A stretch of 64,000 bases of DNA from Alphaproteobacteria bacterium. GTDB lineage: Bacteria; Pseudomonadota; Alphaproteobacteria; UBA9219. Below the pieces are notes generated by a model. That model was not told the DNA's origin and searched no databases. It saw only the letters and a program-made list of their open reading frames with translations. This document shows positions 44,635-64,000 of this stretch, piece after piece. The stretch covers positions 204,242 to 268,241 of the forward strand of contig JAQVBU010000001.1 in the NCBI GenBank assembly GCA_028690155.1. Reading direction: 5' to 3'. The first letter of the stretch is position 1. Every line of letters starts with the position of its first letter. The translations under genes were made by a program, and so were the position numbers.

Positions 44635-44829
44635 GATTAAGTCCACGTGAGGGCCCCCGTGGGTGGGAGAGGCCTTTGCGGGTGCTCCTTAAAAAAGGCG
44701 AAAGGCACAGGCGGCGAGGGCGTTTTAGGGCTGACGTTTCATACATTGAGTGATACACTCGCCTTCCAAGGTGCGCGCCGCTTTAAGCGCCGCGTGCTTC
44801 CCTCGATCCTGTTGAGCCCCTTGTTTCCT

Positions 44830-45600
44830 ATGAAAAAAGCCATCCTTTTTTTGTTGCCCTGCGTCGTGGCCTTCGCGGCCGCGCCGACGTTGGCCGCAAG
44901 CCCGACGGCGAACGAACTTCGCCTTTCCTCTCAAGAAGAAGAACTTCGCGCCCTCAACGGTCGGCTCGAGGAGATGGAGTTCTCGATTCACAAGTTGGAT
45001 ACGGCGATGCAGCGTCTTCAGAGCGACGTTGAGCAGCGTTTAAAGAAGATCGAGGCCCAAATTGAAACGACGACGCCTCTCGAAAAAGGCGCGGCGGAGG
45101 GCAAGACGGAAGGGACGCTAGGCGTCCTTAAGCTGCGTGACGGGAAGGTGACCGACTCTGTGAACCAGCCCAGCGCGCCGTCTCTTCCGCCGGTTTCCGA
45201 AGGCTATGGCCTAACGCCTCAAGAACAATATGAGCGGGCGTTTAATTTCCTTCGTGAGGCTAACTATAAAGAGGCGCAGGACGCATTCCGGGCTTTTATT
45301 GATAAAAACCCGAACGACAAACTTCTGGATAACGCCAAGTATTGGTACGCCGAAACGCTTTACGTGCGCGCCCGGTTTGAAGAGGCGGCCGTGGCTTTTG
45401 CGGACGCCTATCAACAAAACCCTAAAGGAGCCAAGGCGCCGGACAGCTTGTTGAAGCTTGGGATGTCGCTGGAGGCTTTGAAGAAAACGGGGGACGCGTG
45501 CGTAACCTTCAATGAATTGAAGAACAAGTATCCCAATGCCTCGCCCACCATTAAAACCCGGGCAAGGGAAGAGCGCGCGAAGCTGAAATGTCCGAACTAG
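44830..45600 (+). CDS. cpoB: Tol-Pal associated periplasmic protein CpoB (YbgF)
   Basis: The 256-residue protein starts with a signal peptide (MKKAILFLLPCVVAFAAAPTLAA), then an N-terminal coiled coil (SQEEELRALNGRLEEMEFSIHKLDTAMQRL) and C-terminal TPR repeats (YERAFNFLREANYKEAQDAFRAFIDKNP and following). This is the CpoB arrangement; it links cell-wall synthesis with outer-membrane constriction. Start ATG 44830 is used; the longer frame from 44647 has no support. It overlaps tilS by 13 bases. tol and pal genes are not adjacent upstream, in contrast to the usual order. Confidence 0.92.
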   Translation: MKKAILFLLPCVVAFAAAPTLAASPTANELRLSSQEEELRALNGRLEEMEFSIHKLDTAMQRLQSDVEQRLKKIEAQIETTTPLEKGAAEGKTEGTLGVLKLRDGKVTDSVNQPSAPSLPPVSEGYGLTPQEQYERAFNFLREANYKEAQDAFRAFIDKNPNDKLLDNAKYWYAETLYVRARFEEAAVAFADAYQQNPKGAKAPDSLLKLGMSLEALKKTGDACVTFNELKNKYPNASPTIKTRAREERAKLKCPN

Positions 45601-46841
45601 CGTTGGCGGCGGAGGATTTTGCGCGCCTGATGGAGTCCTTTGACTCGGTCGCGCCGCGCGTGGCTTTGGCCGTGTCCGGCGGCCCCGACAGCATGGCCTT
45701 GGCTTTTTGCGCGCAACGATGGAGAAAGAGTTCCTGCGTGGCGTTGATTGTCGAACACGGCTTACGTGAAGAATCGGCTGAGGAAGCGGCTACAGTGCAG
45801 CGGCGGCTCAAAGCGATGGGCATCGACGCTGAGATTTTGCCGTGGCATCACGAGGACAGCCTTGTGCGTGTGCACGAAGCCGCGCGACGCGCTCGATACG
45901 ACTTGTTGACCTCGGCATGCCGTCGTTTGGGGGCCGGGGATTTGTTGATGGCGCATCATAGGGGCGATCAGGCGGAAACCGTACTGATGCGCCTGGCCAA
46001 GGGAAGTGGGCTTGATGGCTTGGCGGGCATCGATCCGTGTCTTGTGCGCGACGGAATACGGATTCTTCGGCCTTTTCTGACGATTCCAAGAGCGCGGCTT
46101 GAGGCGACGTGCCGCGCCGCGAACATTGCGGTGGTGCATGATCCCAGCAACGCCTCGGAAAAGTACGCGCGCGGCCGGCTGCGCAAAGTGGCGCCTCTTT
46201 TGGAGCGCGAAGGGTTTACCGAGGATCGTTTGATCGCGTTGCGTACGCATGCACGCGACGCGCGCGAGGCGCTGGAGATTATGACGCGGGATTTTTTGGC
46301 GCGATCGGGACGTGTTTGTCCGGGTGGCGTCGTTTGTGTGGCGCGCGACGCTTTGGCGACCGCGCCGCGTGCGGTGGCGTTGCGGGCGTTACGCGCTTCT
46401 TTGCGCTATGTCCACGAGGGTCCTTATCCCCCGTCCTACGATGCGCTGGAGGCGTTGCTTGCGGCGGCATGGGGGGACGCGCCGACATGGGGGCGGACCG
46501 TTCATGGGTGCATGATTTCGGCCTCGAGTAAGTCCTTGCGTTTTTTCCGGGAATTGGCCGCTGTGAGCGAAAGGGTGCCGTTGTCAGCGGGGCAGTCGGT
46601 CTTGTGGGACGATCGATGGCTTGTCTCGTCGCGGACGCTCTCCGGCGTCGTGCGCCCTTTGGGCGTCGTTTCGCATGCGGTTTGTGATGCTGTGGCCCCA
46701 GACTTGCGCGCTCGCGTGCCTTGGGGTCGTGCGCGGGCAACGCTTCCGTCCTTGTGGGACGGCGATACGCTTTTGGCGGTGCCGTCTTTCGATTCCGCCG
46801 CGCCCCTAAGCGCGGTTTATGTAAAACAGACCTTTCCCTGA
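45588..46841 (+). CDS. tilS: tRNA(Ile)-lysidine synthase
   Basis: The 417-residue ATP-dependent ligase puts lysine on C34 of tRNA-Ile(CAU). The PP-loop SGGPDS is at residues 30-35, and the N-domain GxHxxDQAET-like HHRGDQAETVLMRLAKGSGLDGL is at about 124-148. The C-terminal half is variable, as usual. It overlaps cpoB by 13 bases. In most Alphaproteobacteria ftsH follows tilS; here a pseudokinase gene does, a local order change. Confidence 0.94.
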   Translation: MSELALAAEDFARLMESFDSVAPRVALAVSGGPDSMALAFCAQRWRKSSCVALIVEHGLREESAEEAATVQRRLKAMGIDAEILPWHHEDSLVRVHEAARRARYDLLTSACRRLGAGDLLMAHHRGDQAETVLMRLAKGSGLDGLAGIDPCLVRDGIRILRPFLTIPRARLEATCRAANIAVVHDPSNASEKYARGRLRKVAPLLEREGFTEDRLIALRTHARDAREALEIMTRDFLARSGRVCPGGVVCVARDALATAPRAVALRALRASLRYVHEGPYPPSYDALEALLAAAWGDAPTWGRTVHGCMISASSKSLRFFRELAAVSERVPLSAGQSVLWDDRWLVSSRTLSGVVRPLGVVSHAVCDAVAPDLRARVPWGRARATLPSLWDGDTLLAVPSFDSAAPLSAVYVKQTFP

Positions 46842-46895: not shown

Positions 46896-48926
46896 ATGGC
46901 CTACGACGACCAAAAAAAATCTTCTTCCAATGGGATCCTTCTGGGAGGCCGGCTCGAGATTTTTCCTTCCAAGCCCCTTCCGGATCTCGATAGCCCCGGA
47001 GGCCCGGCTTTTGTGGCGCGCTTCCGTGGCGACGCCGCGTCGAGCCTTTACGCGATCGTGTGCGATTCCAAGATTCCGCCCCGCTTCGAATCGGTTCCCT
47101 CAATGCGGAACGTCGATAACCGTGGCGTGCTCCCCTTCGTGGAAGGCGGCGTCATACCGTGGAAAGGCGAATCAAACGCTTACGCGCTTGTGTATCAGAA
47201 ACCGACCGCTCCGCGGATGATGACCTCGTTGGACGAAGTGCGCCCCCCTCTCGGCGAAGACGCGACAAATCGCTTCTTCATTGCGCCCATGATCGATGCG
47301 TTGATGACCCTTAGCAACATGGGCCTCGTTCACAACGCCATTCGGCCGACAAACATTTTTTGGCGCATTGGCACCGCATCGATCCCCCAGCTTGGCGAAT
47401 GTCTGTCGTCTCCGGCGGGCTTTGGCCAGCCCGTTCTTTTCGAGCCGCCTTCTCGCGCGCGCGCCATGCCCTTTGGTCGGGGCGTGGGCGTTTATGCCGA
47501 CGATTGCTACGCTTTCGGCATTACCTTGGCGCTCCTTGTTCTCGGGCGCAACCCGCTTCAAGGGCTGAGCGACAAGGAGATCATTGATCTTAAGCTGCAA
47601 AAAGGAAGCTTTGGCGCGGTGATCGGAAACAGCCGATTGTTGCCGACGCACATCGAAATTTTGCGAGGCCTTCTGGCCGATGACCCCGCGCAGCGGTGGA
47701 CTCCAAACGATTTGGAGCAATGGCTTGGCGGGCGGCGCATGACGTTGAAGAGCTCGGACGCCGGCCGTCGTGCGTCGCGCCTTTTCTCCTTCCTTGGCAA
47801 AGAATACTGGCAGATCGCCCCGCTGGCCGAGGCCTTTGCGTCTAATCCATCCGAGGCGACGAAGGTTATTGAGAACGAATCGCTTAACAAATGGCTGCGC
47901 CGCGCGTTAAACGGCAACGACCTGGCCCACACGATTGAAGATGTCGTCAATGAGCTTAAACAAAGCGGCAAGGCGGCGCATTACGAAGACCAGTTGGTCG
48001 CTCAAGTCTGTATCATTCTCGATCATTCAGCCCCCATTCGATACCGGGGGTTGTCGGTGCTTCCGGCCGGCGTTCCTGCGCTTTTGGTCAATGCCCTTTC
48101 GGGGGGCTGCGACATTCAGGTCTTATCCGAGATTATCGCAGGGCCTTTCGTGTCGCTGTGGATTCACATGCAGGGCGAAAAGCGGACGGACTATGTCACG
48201 CTTGGGCAGATGTTCGATCGTATCCGTAATGTGATTGAAAAGGGCTCAATCGGGAACGGTATCGAGAGGGCTCTTTACGAATCGAATCCGGGCCTGCCTT
48301 GTCTCAGCCCTCTCGTGCGGGATCAGTTCGTCACGGCCCCCAAAAAACTTTTGGAAGCGCTCGAACGTGTGGCGGCGCGCGGCAATCAGGGGCGCGAGCC
48401 GATGGATCGGCACATCGCCGCTTTTCTTATTGTGCGCGAAAGACGAGGAAATTCCGCCTTTTCTTCATTGAGCGGCCCTGAAGATTTGTTGAATCGAAAG
48501 ATGGCGCTTTTAACAGTTTTTGCTGAGCTTCAGTACAAGTATGGCCCGGAGAATCTGCCGCACCTTGCCTCGTGGCTTTCTTCCGTGGTCGATCCCGCTT
48601 TGCAGCGGTTTTTCAGCAAGACGTTGCGTGAGGCCAAAAAGAAACGCGCCAAGGATCTTGTCGCTGCGGGCGATTTGTCCGCTCTGCTTCAGCTTATCGA
48701 CAATCCGGTTACGATCGAGAGGGATCAAAAAGACTTTATTGCGGCACGACTTCTTTATTTGAACATCCAAAAAGAAATTATCGGCCTTGAGGCGAAAAAC
48801 AAGAACCGGGATGACATTGCGCGTAAGATCGGGCGTCCCACCGCCGTGACAATCAGCAGTTTTTTGGCGGTTGTCCTGATAAGCGCGGCGGTTTTGCGCG
48901 CCTTTTTCTCAGTTTTGATGCGTTAG
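46896..48926 (+). CDS. membrane-anchored protein-kinase-fold protein, likely pseudokinase
   Basis: The 676-residue protein starts with a kinase-like fold (residues about 15-290). The lysine normally in VAIK is missing (LYAIVCDSK), the HRD loop is HNAIRPTN (residues 146-153) with Ala 148 for catalytic Asp, and DFG is replaced by LGEC (166-169). The F-helix DDCYAFG (202-208) is kept. Residues 290-640 form a long helical region. A single C-terminal transmembrane helix (about 649-671) ends the protein, placing the kinase fold in the cytoplasm. It follows tilS by 54 bases and is followed by a 71-bp tandem repeat array. No known name; a scaffold or regulator is likely. Confidence 0.88.
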   Translation: MAYDDQKKSSSNGILLGGRLEIFPSKPLPDLDSPGGPAFVARFRGDAASSLYAIVCDSKIPPRFESVPSMRNVDNRGVLPFVEGGVIPWKGESNAYALVYQKPTAPRMMTSLDEVRPPLGEDATNRFFIAPMIDALMTLSNMGLVHNAIRPTNIFWRIGTASIPQLGECLSSPAGFGQPVLFEPPSRARAMPFGRGVGVYADDCYAFGITLALLVLGRNPLQGLSDKEIIDLKLQKGSFGAVIGNSRLLPTHIEILRGLLADDPAQRWTPNDLEQWLGGRRMTLKSSDAGRRASRLFSFLGKEYWQIAPLAEAFASNPSEATKVIENESLNKWLRRALNGNDLAHTIEDVVNELKQSGKAAHYEDQLVAQVCIILDHSAPIRYRGLSVLPAGVPALLVNALSGGCDIQVLSEIIAGPFVSLWIHMQGEKRTDYVTLGQMFDRIRNVIEKGSIGNGIERALYESNPGLPCLSPLVRDQFVTAPKKLLEALERVAARGNQGREPMDRHIAAFLIVRERRGNSAFSSLSGPEDLLNRKMALLTVFAELQYKYGPENLPHLASWLSSVVDPALQRFFSKTLREAKKKRAKDLVAAGDLSALLQLIDNPVTIERDQKDFIAARLLYLNIQKEIIGLEAKNKNRDDIARKIGRPTAVTISSFLAVVLISAAVLRAFFSVLMR

Positions 48927-48927
48927 A

Positions 48928-49188
48928 GCCGATCGTGATAAGGTTGGCGTCTTTTAACGACAACCGTTCACGTGAATCGGCTCGCTCATCAAACTAACGC
49001 CGATCGTGATAAGGTTGGCGTCTTTTAACGACAACCATTCACGTGAATCGGCTCGCTCATCAAACTAACGCCGATCGTGATAAGGTTGGCGTCTTTTAAC
49101 GACAACCGTTCACGTGAATCGGCTCGCTCATCAAACTAACGCCGATCGTGATAAGGTTGGCGTCTTTTAACGACAACCATTCACGTGA
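48928..49188. repeat. 71-bp tandem repeats, 3.7 copies, palindromic units
   Basis: Units begin at 48928, 48999, 49070 and 49141 (last cut at 49188), each 71 bp and almost identical. A G/A difference at one position alternates G, A, G, A, implying a 142-bp duplication. Each unit can fold from GCCGAT to ATCGGC with inner GGTTG/AACC and GTC/GAC pairs, and holds the palindrome TTCACGTGAA (TTCACGTGAC in the cut last copy). It starts two bases past the pseudokinase stop. No spacers, so it is not a CRISPR array. Confidence 0.9.
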
Positions 49189-61269: not shown

Positions 61270-64000
61270 ATGCGGCGATGCATTCGGAAAGGTAACGCCG
61301 GATTTGGTATCACAGCCGTCCTGTATCTCCTCGTCCTGACAGGCATCGCCGCCGGCATCCTCTTTAGCGGCTACGCGCAGACAATCCGCAACAACATCAC
61401 GCTCGTCAAGGCCATTAGCGCCAAGCGCGATATTGATGCTGCCTCGACCACTCTGGCCGCAACGTCCGTTTTGGGCGGCTCGGCGGTGAGCCCTCTTTTG
61501 TGCCCGCCTCTTGTGTCCGGCGTCGAGGACACCAACTGTCCTGCCGGAACGCCGATTTCTTTACAGGCGATTCCCGAAAGCACCGATTCCCACGTCCCTC
61601 AAGCTTCGGGCGGCGGGGATTTGGAAACGTTTCTTCTTTCCGGTACGACACCGCCGCTTAGCGTCGGCATTTTCCTGCCCGTGGCCGGTGTCAAACAACT
61701 TGATCCTTGGGGACACTATTATCTTGTTTGCCGATGGGACAGCGCGCCGACGACGTCCGATCCTGCGTTCCAGATTCTCTCTTCCGGTCCTAAAGGCGTC
61801 ATGAACACCACGTGCGGCGATACCCCGACGACCGCCTCTGGAAACTACGGCATCTTGGTCAATGCGGCCAGCGCTGTGAACCGGGCTTCGGTGTGGCAGG
61901 TGCGATCCGACGAAGGAACGGTCACGGCGACATACAGCGCGACCGGCGTCAGTGTGGATTCGCAAGGCAATCTTCAGGTCCCCGGCAATTTCACCGTTGA
62001 GGGCAATCAGACCATCACGGCAGGCAATCTGACCATGACGAGCGGGTCGCTTACCGCTTTGCGGGCTATTCTTTCGGATTCGGTCAATGTCGGCGCCGGA
62101 AATTTTCTCGTCAATTCCTCGGGCTTCGTGACGGCCATCAGCGCGGCGTTGTCGAGCACTTTCTCGGCGGCGGCCGGTTCGTTTAGCATCGGAACGACGG
62201 GCGATGTAAGCGTCGGACCATCCGGGACGCCTACTCTTGTGATCTCGGCCTCGACCGGCGACCTTGCCGCCGCCGGCAATATGGCCGCAGGCGGCACGGT
62301 GACGATCGGCTCCAGCAGCACGCCGTCCACGCCGTCGTTGAACACATATGGCCCGGTTCATGTCGCGACCAACGTGGGCACGGGCGGGACGGCGGTTCCT
62401 TATCTGTCCGTAGGGCAATTGTCCGGGGGGCTTTACCCGTTCCGGGTCAATCAGGCCGGCGGAATCGAATCCGTTAGCCTTTCGGCGTCGACAGGAATCT
62501 TTTCCGGATCGTTGTCAGCGGACAGCCTGTCGGCCAACAGCGCGACGATCAGCGATTCGCTTTGGGCCGGGAGCGCGACCGTCGGCGGCGGGGCCGGCAC
62601 CTTAACGGTCAATGGATTGTTGACTGTGAACGGTGCCTATACCACCCAAATCGGCGGCCCGATGAACATCGGTGGCGATACGGTGATTACGGGCGATCTG
62701 ACCGTGTCGGGAACAATCACGGGCGCGACATCGGGAGCGATCTTGGAAGAGTCGACGGGCATTCTGCCGGTGAGCAAGGGCGGTACGGGCGCGGGGACGG
62801 TGCCGCAGGGACTGATCAATATCGGCGGCAATAACGCCAGCTATATCACCCTAGGAACCTTGGGCTATGAACGGCTCGACACGACGGGCATCTCCAACAC
62901 GGGCGGCCCTTTTAACGAAGTCTATGTCGACGAATATGGGCGGGTCACGTCGGCATCGTTGGTCTCATCGGACACGTTGACGGATGATTATGGCAACACG
63001 ATTACGGTCGGGACCGAAGGTTTTACCCTTATTCTCGGGAGCGTGGTTCAGGGCGTTTGGAACACGACGGGTCTGGGAATCGGGACCGATGACCCCACCT
63101 ATAAATTGACGTTATACGGACCGGACAGCAGCCTCAGCGGGCCTCACGTCGCGGCCTATACGTCGACGGATCCAACGCACCCCGTCTTCCAGCAATTGAA
63201 CTGGACGCATGACAATCTTTCTCTCAATTTTGATGCCTATTACGATGGATCGTGGCGCAGCAGCAGCACGACCGGCAACTATCAAATCTATAAAAACGGC
63301 GGCTCGTTGCATGTTCGTTATGCCTCTTCCGTCAGTGCGGGGACGACGCTTACTTGGACCGAGGGCCTCATTCTAACCTCGGCAGGACGGTTTGGAATCG
63401 GCACGACGTCCCCGGGCTACAAGCTGGATGTAAACGGAAACGCCAGAATAACGAGCACGGCCTATGTCGTCGGCAGCGTCGGCATCGGAACGGCCAGCCC
63501 GGCCTACAAGCTTCATGTGATTGGCTCCGCCAACATCACGGGCAACACGACGATTGGCGGCGACTTGGCCGTAGGGGGAAGCACGACGATCGGCGGCGAT
63601 CTGACCGTCACGGGGACGGTGGTCGGCGCGACGCTGGACACCTTGACGGACGGCGCGGGCGATACGTTGGTCATCAGCACGACGGGGCTGACCTTGACGT
63701 TGGCCAGCACGGCGCAGGGACAGTGGACGGCGACGGGCCTTGGTATCGGCACGACCACCCCCGCCTACAAGCTTCATGTGGTGGGATCGTCGTATGTGTC
63801 GAGCAATTCCCTTGTGGCGGGCGACATGGGCATCGGCACGACAACACCGGGCTATAAGTTGCATGTTGTGGGGTCGTCGTATGTGTCGAGCAATTCCCTT
63901 GTGGCGGGCGACATGGGCATCGGCACGACAACACCGGGCTATAAGTTGCATGTTGTGGGGTCGTCGTATGTGTCGAGCAATTCCCTTGTGGCGGGCAGCA
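61270..64000 (+). CDS. giant tail-fibre-like surface protein with pilin-like N-terminus (3' end outside window)
   Basis: The open frame of at least 910 codons continues past the right edge. ATG 61270 has AGGAGG eight bases upstream. The N-terminus is basic (MRRCIRKGNAG) followed by a hydrophobic helix FGITAVLYLLVLTGIAAGIL, reminiscent of prepilin or shufflon-type N-termini, with a G-F junction. The remainder is Thr/Gly/Ser-rich beta structure with phrases GIGTTSPGYKLDVNGNA, as in phage tail-fibre and trimeric adhesin stalks. Cys pairs appear early (LCPPLVSGVEDTNC; CRWD, CGDT). From 63739 it becomes an exact 29-residue repeat. Likely a cell-surface or pilus-tip adhesin; secretion route unknown. 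Confidence 0.8.
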   Translation, partial: MRRCIRKGNAGFGITAVLYLLVLTGIAAGILFSGYAQTIRNNITLVKAISAKRDIDAASTTLAATSVLGGSAVSPLLCPPLVSGVEDTNCPAGTPISLQAIPESTDSHVPQASGGGDLETFLLSGTTPPLSVGIFLPVAGVKQLDPWGHYYLVCRWDSAPTTSDPAFQILSSGPKGVMNTTCGDTPTTASGNYGILVNAASAVNRASVWQVRSDEGTVTATYSATGVSVDSQGNLQVPGNFTVEGNQTITAGNLTMTSGSLTALRAILSDSVNVGAGNFLVNSSGFVTAISAALSSTFSAAAGSFSIGTTGDVSVGPSGTPTLVISASTGDLAAAGNMAAGGTVTIGSSSTPSTPSLNTYGPVHVATNVGTGGTAVPYLSVGQLSGGLYPFRVNQAGGIESVSLSASTGIFSGSLSADSLSANSATISDSLWAGSATVGGGAGTLTVNGLLTVNGAYTTQIGGPMNIGGDTVITGDLTVSGTITGATSGAILEESTGILPVSKGGTGAGTVPQGLINIGGNNASYITLGTLGYERLDTTGISNTGGPFNEVYVDEYGRVTSASLVSSDTLTDDYGNTITVGTEGFTLILGSVVQGVWNTTGLGIGTDDPTYKLTLYGPDSSLSGPHVAAYTSTDPTHPVFQQLNWTHDNLSLNFDAYYDGSWRSSSTTGNYQIYKNGGSLHVRYASSVSAGTTLTWTEGLILTSAGRFGIGTTSPGYKLDVNGNARITSTAYVVGSVGIGTASPAYKLHVIGSANITGNTTIGGDLAVGGSTTIGGDLTVTGTVVGATLDTLTDGAGDTLVISTTGLTLTLASTAQGQWTATGLGIGTTTPAYKLHVVGSSYVSSNSLVAGDMGIGTTTPGYKLHVVGSSYVSSNSLVAGDMGIGTTTPGYKLHVVGSSYVSSNSLVAGS
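63739..64000 (+). repeat. 87-bp coding tandem repeat (29 residues)
   Basis: Units start at 63739, 63826 and 63913; the next would begin at 64000. The second and third are identical for about 80 bases; the first differs mainly at synonymous sites. Each encodes GIGTTTPxYKLHVVGSSY followed by VSSNSLVAG. Exact DNA repeats inside a gene are prone to length change and may vary the stalk length. Confidence 0.9.

Follow-up and report, generated by a model that had tools for sequence, protein, structure and literature searches.

What does a bacterium do with a membrane-anchored protein that has kept the fold of a protein kinase and lost the residues on which catalysis normally depends? The question is raised by a gene that follows tilS, in the place where ftsH is usually found, in the 64,000-nucleotide stretch of alphaproteobacterial DNA analysed here (the window; Table 1). 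The original prediction, made from the letters of the DNA, had described its product as a membrane-anchored pseudokinase and had considered a scaffolding role in cell-envelope or stress signalling. The first part of this description is borne out by the residue losses, the kinase fold and the C-terminal hydrophobic segment reported below. We further describe a membrane protein that is inherited with the pseudokinase and was not visible to that prediction.

Architecture and fold

From its N- to its C-terminus the protein consists of a kinase-fold lobe, a mostly helical domain of about 355 residues and a C-terminal membrane helix.

Table 1. Coordinates of the pseudokinase gene, its parts and its surroundings in the window
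Feature	Position	Strand	Basis or remark
ybgF/cpoB-like gene	44647..45600	+	TIGR02795, 3.8e-33; start codon uncertain
tilS, upstream neighbour	45588..46841	+	PF01171, 4.5e-49
Pseudokinase gene, 676 aa	46896..48926	+	CDS including stop; intact frame
Kinase-fold lobe pair, residues ~14-280	46935..47735	+	AF2 model; VIA/Foldseek kinase matches
V55 codon, beta3 (VAIK) Lys position	47058..47060	+	alignment column
HNAIRPTN, altered HRDxxxxN loop, residues 146-153	47331..47354	+	A148, R150, N153
LGEC replacing xxDFG, residues 166-169	47391..47402	+	E168 at the Asp position
Mostly helical C-terminal domain with two beta-hairpins, residues ~290-646	47763..48833	+	AF2
C-terminal membrane anchor, residues ~649-675	48840..48920	+	top-scoring 19-residue hydropathy windows
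71-bp tandem repeat, 3.7 copies, 98% matches	48928..49188	+	starts 1 base past the pseudokinase stop

Structure prediction with AF2, which had been proposed as a check, gives a kinase fold, and at the level of fold the protein belongs to the Hanks-type superfamily, with two lobes, a helix-F Asp and an APE Glu with its Arg partner. The fold landmarks are kept, as had been claimed, and they are kept throughout the class: among 58 aligned members D203 is found in 58, E183 in 55 and R267 in 57. The kinase lobe has a profile hit to MK2 at 1.2e-13, KSR1 and TYK2 JH2 were within the top 50 structural matches, and WNK kinases, which lack the beta3 Lys, were among the top VIA matches.

The helical domain, when modelled alone with AF2, reaches a pLDDT of 94.7 and a pTM of 0.83, and has no detectable match among solved structures (PDB). 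It contains the motif GxGxERxLYELNPxxPCxSP, and its residues Y461 and C469 are invariant in all 58 class members. The model further places a helix at residues 638-675, spanning the predicted anchor, and a hydrophobic segment is present at the C-terminus of 55 of the 58 proteins. AF2 and hydropathy agree on a helical region of roughly the 350 residues originally proposed, followed by a C-terminal anchor.

The tandem repeat behind the gene opens, at 48928, with a terminator-like stem-loop that has a T-rich tail; such sites are no commoner in the region than chance would give (5 against an expected 5.6), and no further copies of the core of the 71-bp repeat were found elsewhere in the window. Another tandem repeat, of 87 bp and 2.9 copies, lies near the end of the window (63745-63996).

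The altered active site

Three catalytic elements had been described as lost, and for two of them this stands. The beta3 Lys position is occupied by I, V, L or F in 27 of 27 aligned members of the order, all of which lack the HRD Asp as well. In the window A148 replaces the HRD Asp, R150 sits at the position of the catalytic-loop Lys, and N153 is the retained Asn of HRDxxxxN. Across the class (n=58) the Lys is found in one member and the HRD Asp in one, the latter column being A, S or G in 42, and both residues are missing in 56. The two retained residues occur in different proteins, the Lys in L118 and the Asp in L067, neither of which keeps the rest. A search of residues 20-49 in all 58 members for a substitute Lys found none that is conserved, the best basic column reaching 28/58. 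The claim does not hold in the same way for DFG, as the Asp site carries a Glu in the window and is acidic in 50 of the 58 members (E in 30, D in 20). The metal side of the active site is thus, as far as the alignment tells, partly retained, and with the DFG site still acidic, binding of a nucleotide or metal may persist. The complete triad of Lys, HRD Asp and DFG Asp occurs in none of the 58 proteins. Taken together, the usual route of phosphorylation is probably closed to the protein, and with V55, A148 and E168 in the window we reject its assignment as a catalytically competent Ser/Thr kinase.

A pattern of this kind might also belong to a repurposed enzyme, in which a rearranged nucleotide site made up of N153, E/D168, R63 and R150 would serve another transfer chemistry, or ATP binding without transfer. 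There is precedent for both, in that SelO AMPylates, SidJ glutamylates and ULK4 binds ATP without transfer, as has likewise been proposed for DLHK pseudokinases. The residues in question are indeed well kept, with the Asn in 54, R63 in 54 and R150 in 47 of the 58 members besides the acidic DFG position, and the WNK kinases returned by VIA point the same way. Moreover, an arginine-based site is described for DLHK pseudokinases in PMC12599244. Against such a rearrangement speak the small residues at the HRD-Asp position and the lack of a conserved substitute Lys in residues 20-49, so that we regard a repurposed enzyme as unlikely, though worth keeping in mind.

A co-inherited membrane protein

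Throughout the class the common gene order is purA - pseudokinase - PARTNER - rpoH, with hisZ also frequent upstream and with rpoH and rluD as frequent downstream genes on the opposite strand. PARTNER is the name used here for a multi-TM protein of about 165 amino acids that emerged as a neighbour cluster without a Pfam family; any single Pfam family is matched by at most 2 of 41 of its members, and weakly. The clustering took the neighbours of 60 pseudokinase genes. These genes come from 59 loci, as two (L069 and L108) of the 61, made up of the window and 60 fetched loci, were dropped by ORF picking. By ORF picking 47 of the 60 genes are immediately followed by PARTNER on the same strand, and the count rises to 53 when six found by HMM coordinates (L088, L095, L096, L097, L113, L116) are added. 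The rpoH cluster is present in 24 of the 61 loci, mostly as the second gene downstream and on the other strand.

The two genes also go together in their occurrence. Among 385 genomes of the class 131 have both and 247 neither, while the pseudokinase is found without PARTNER in one (G099, a weak match) and PARTNER without the pseudokinase in six. Four of these six (out of 137 genomes with PARTNER) have matches with E > 1e-4 and two are genomes 84% and 75% complete. All 22 good-quality genomes of the order carry PARTNER. In a sample of 398 genomes of the phylum, PARTNER is present, among the matches listed, in the same 16 genomes as the whole pseudokinase, and it was not found in that sample outside the class; 11 of these 16 carriers belong to the class sample as well. 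The pairing has exceptions: in each of the genomes G129, G167, G267 and G348 a single PARTNER match accompanies two separate genes for the pseudokinase.

Copy number varies in other ways too: the related genomes G047 and G179 (L160-L165) each have three extra PARTNER copies apart from their single pseudokinase match, and G296 and G376 have one extra copy each. Tandem arrays of the form pseudokinase-PARTNER-pseudokinase-PARTNER occur at L087, L091 and L099 (genomes G308, G385 and G165).

Co-inheritance of adjacent genes is in part mere shared ancestry, which inflates the co-occurrence counts, and mirror-tree analysis gives a partial r of 0.36-0.45 for pseudokinase and PARTNER as against 0.37 for the control pair of pseudokinase and rluD, values that do not set the two pairs apart. 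The co-inherited PARTNER is the strongest clue to function, and the pattern suggests, from comparison of genomes, that the two proteins may constitute an unrecognised two-part device.

Gene order around tilS and ftsH

In the window's own genus the arrangement is different. In all 11 of its genomes both genes are present, on different contigs and among other neighbours, with the pseudokinase following tilS in 10 (the exception being G012) and PARTNER directly following ftsH in 10 (the exception being G004). In the source genome the single strong ftsH match adjoins PARTNER on contig C22. Elsewhere in the order, 21 genomes have both tilS and ftsH; in 16 of them the two genes are no more than about 1 kb apart (in two by way of a tilS fragment), and in the remaining 5 they are on different contigs. 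The pseudokinase adjoins PARTNER in 20 of 20 genomes that have both. Since these two adjacencies are the normal state in the order, the arrangement in this genus amounts to a swap of places between the pseudokinase gene and ftsH, in agreement with the earlier view that the pseudokinase stands where ftsH would be expected. The tilS neighbourhood is, however, peculiar to one genus and therefore uninformative for function. G335 is a further case of a split with both genes kept, and G203, in which PARTNER has stayed beside rpoH, is apparently another.

Would the swap nevertheless reveal a role in proteostasis, with the pair binding or gating the membrane protease FtsH, or gating the delivery of substrates such as RpoH? 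The exchanged positions in the genus and the frequent proximity of the pair to rpoH speak in its favour. Then again, rpoH is on the opposite strand and its presence may be plain purA-rpoH synteny, and a swap specific to one genus may be accidental. Moreover, FtsH is to our knowledge near-universal in bacteria, whereas 253 of the 385 class genomes gave no pseudokinase match. We consider such a regulator distinctly unlikely, and the more specific idea of an undescribed two-protein alphaproteobacterial device that regulates FtsH and so RpoH, with the swap as the trace of a functional link, appears improbable to the same degree; the evidence is all of gene position, and it gives a hint.

Distribution and descent

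Of 25 genomes from the family 24 have a homologue of the pseudokinase, as do 32 of 34 from the order, including all 22 of good quality. In the class sample 132 of 385 genomes were matched, or 131 without the weak match in G099 (3e-4), some of the genes being cut by contig ends. Among the matches listed for the phylum sample, 15 genomes have a full-length protein and one has it in two pieces, all of them within the class, and matches outside the class end by profile position 457. In a collection of 72,556 plasmid records, the matches of pseudokinase and of PARTNER fall on one set of five Azospirillum replicons, where the two adjoin. With about one third of the sampled alphaproteobacterial genomes carrying the family, and at least two Azospirillum copies annotated as serine/threonine kinases, counts of kinomes in this class include a protein that probably does not phosphorylate.

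Hanks-type relatives from outside the class but of the same phylum (L189-L191) carry the Lys, HRDIKPGN and DFG, and the two that were scanned match the Pfam kinase family at 2.5e-38 and 1.4e-39. They resemble the family in the kinase lobe and in related first helical segments, the match extending to position 457 in L189 (HMMER) and to about window residue 471 in L190 (hhalign, 99.7%). Because relatives with intact residues share the lobe and the first helical part, the family most likely descends, by these alignments, from an active kinase of this layout, and the states preceding and following the loss of catalysis can be compared directly. The sequence read in the neighbourhood of L189-L191 shows no PARTNER; in the case of L190 the contig stops at the kinase gene. 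Beyond the L189 kinase, on its downstream side (L194, 4316-6984), there are two ORFs with hydrophobic N-termini, possibly encoding membrane proteins, and the PARTNER profile matches neither.

The survey of homologues, which had also been proposed as a check, bears on two further readings. That the protein is an active Ser/Thr kinase of the usual kind whose catalytic residues have moved is very improbable: the fold is intact and two of the five Azospirillum copies are annotated as "serine/threonine protein kinase", but Lys and HRD Asp are jointly missing from nearly all members and a conserved replacement was not seen. A decaying pseudogene, which has the missing residues as its sole support and which had been named as the case that would overturn the original prediction if homologues were active, is refuted by frames that are open over their full length in 27 of the 30 genes read from the order (2 are cut by contig ends, 1 has an in-frame TAG), by dN/dS values of 0.12-0.17 for five pairs of genus members (dS 0.96-2.12, partly saturated) and by losses that are common class-wide, so that it can practically be dismissed. 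As they are shared by homologues across the class, the catalytic losses are, on this comparison, ancestral and not a matter of decay.

A probable docking or switch protein at the membrane

Since the losses are conserved in a gene under purifying selection, since the product keeps a kinase fold, a conserved C-terminal domain and a tail helix, and since it is linked to PARTNER, inherited with it and retained along with it after the split, we think it probable that this class-wide alphaproteobacterial pseudokinase family represents a non-phosphorylating membrane docking or switch protein that acts together with PARTNER. The C-terminal helix would hold the pseudokinase at the inner membrane, on its cytoplasmic side, where it would form a complex with PARTNER. 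The kinase lobe would offer a surface for docking or switching, at which N153, E/D168, R63 and R150 might bind a nucleotide, and the helical domain would bind the target. The scaffold role originally envisaged is plausible; as to a role in the cell envelope, membrane anchoring is the one direct support. The co-inherited PARTNER makes the function testable in Azospirillum.

Comparison with known kinases and pseudokinases

In KSR1 and TYK2 JH2 a pseudokinase domain serves as a docking or allosteric unit, much as we propose here. MviN/ActPs3 is described as working alike. A relation in sequence of the family to any of these was not shown beyond the kinase superfamily. E. coli YegI is termed a putative Ser/Thr kinase and has membrane segments recognisable by eye; the family profile aligns with 27 of its residues only, outside the kinase region and at 1.3 bits.

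Of the groups of bacterial pseudokinases in PMC12599244, which also include ActPs1, ActPs2, ActPs3 and DYD, the comparison took in GLW, DLHK and CP1. GLW pseudokinases, in which GLW replaces HRD and LLLL/W stands at the beta3 Lys, are like the family in being proteobacterial, in their divergent motifs and in a TM segment after the kinase domain (PMC12599244). By that description the family is set apart from them, with HNA in the window and mostly H-[RGN]-[ASG] elsewhere in place of GLW, and with YAIVC in the window and commonly F-A-L-V-C at beta3.

DLHK pseudokinases share the missing beta3 Lys; they are described in PMC12599244 as retaining the HRD Asp, lacking a TM region and often being linked to helicases. 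L192, a distant match over the kinase lobe and first helical segment (2.6e-20), has the motifs AVLT, HRDLRP and GFG that are tabulated there for a DLHK protein. The family itself does not fit this description, with the HRD Asp in 1 of 58 and a TM helix in 55 of 58 members, and the 58 members match 24 Pfam families, none of which is a helicase family. CP1 pseudokinases are defined in PMC12599244 as being linked to a COG3899 domain and as lacking a TM region; the TM helix of the family conflicts with the latter. None of the 24 Pfam families is an ATPase family by name; in NCBIfam, PLuB_AAA is weakly matched by 3 of the 58 members (best 1.3e-4).

A parallel in mode of action is offered by EssB/YukC, a membrane-anchored bacterial pseudokinase that, according to PMC12599244, assembles a membrane complex without catalysis. 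It has the fold in common with the family and differs from it in its type VII secretion context. Bacterial pseudokinases as such are thus known; compared with the GLW, DLHK and CP1 definitions, what is new here, and sets this family apart, is the co-inherited PARTNER together with a C-terminal domain that has no match among solved structures.
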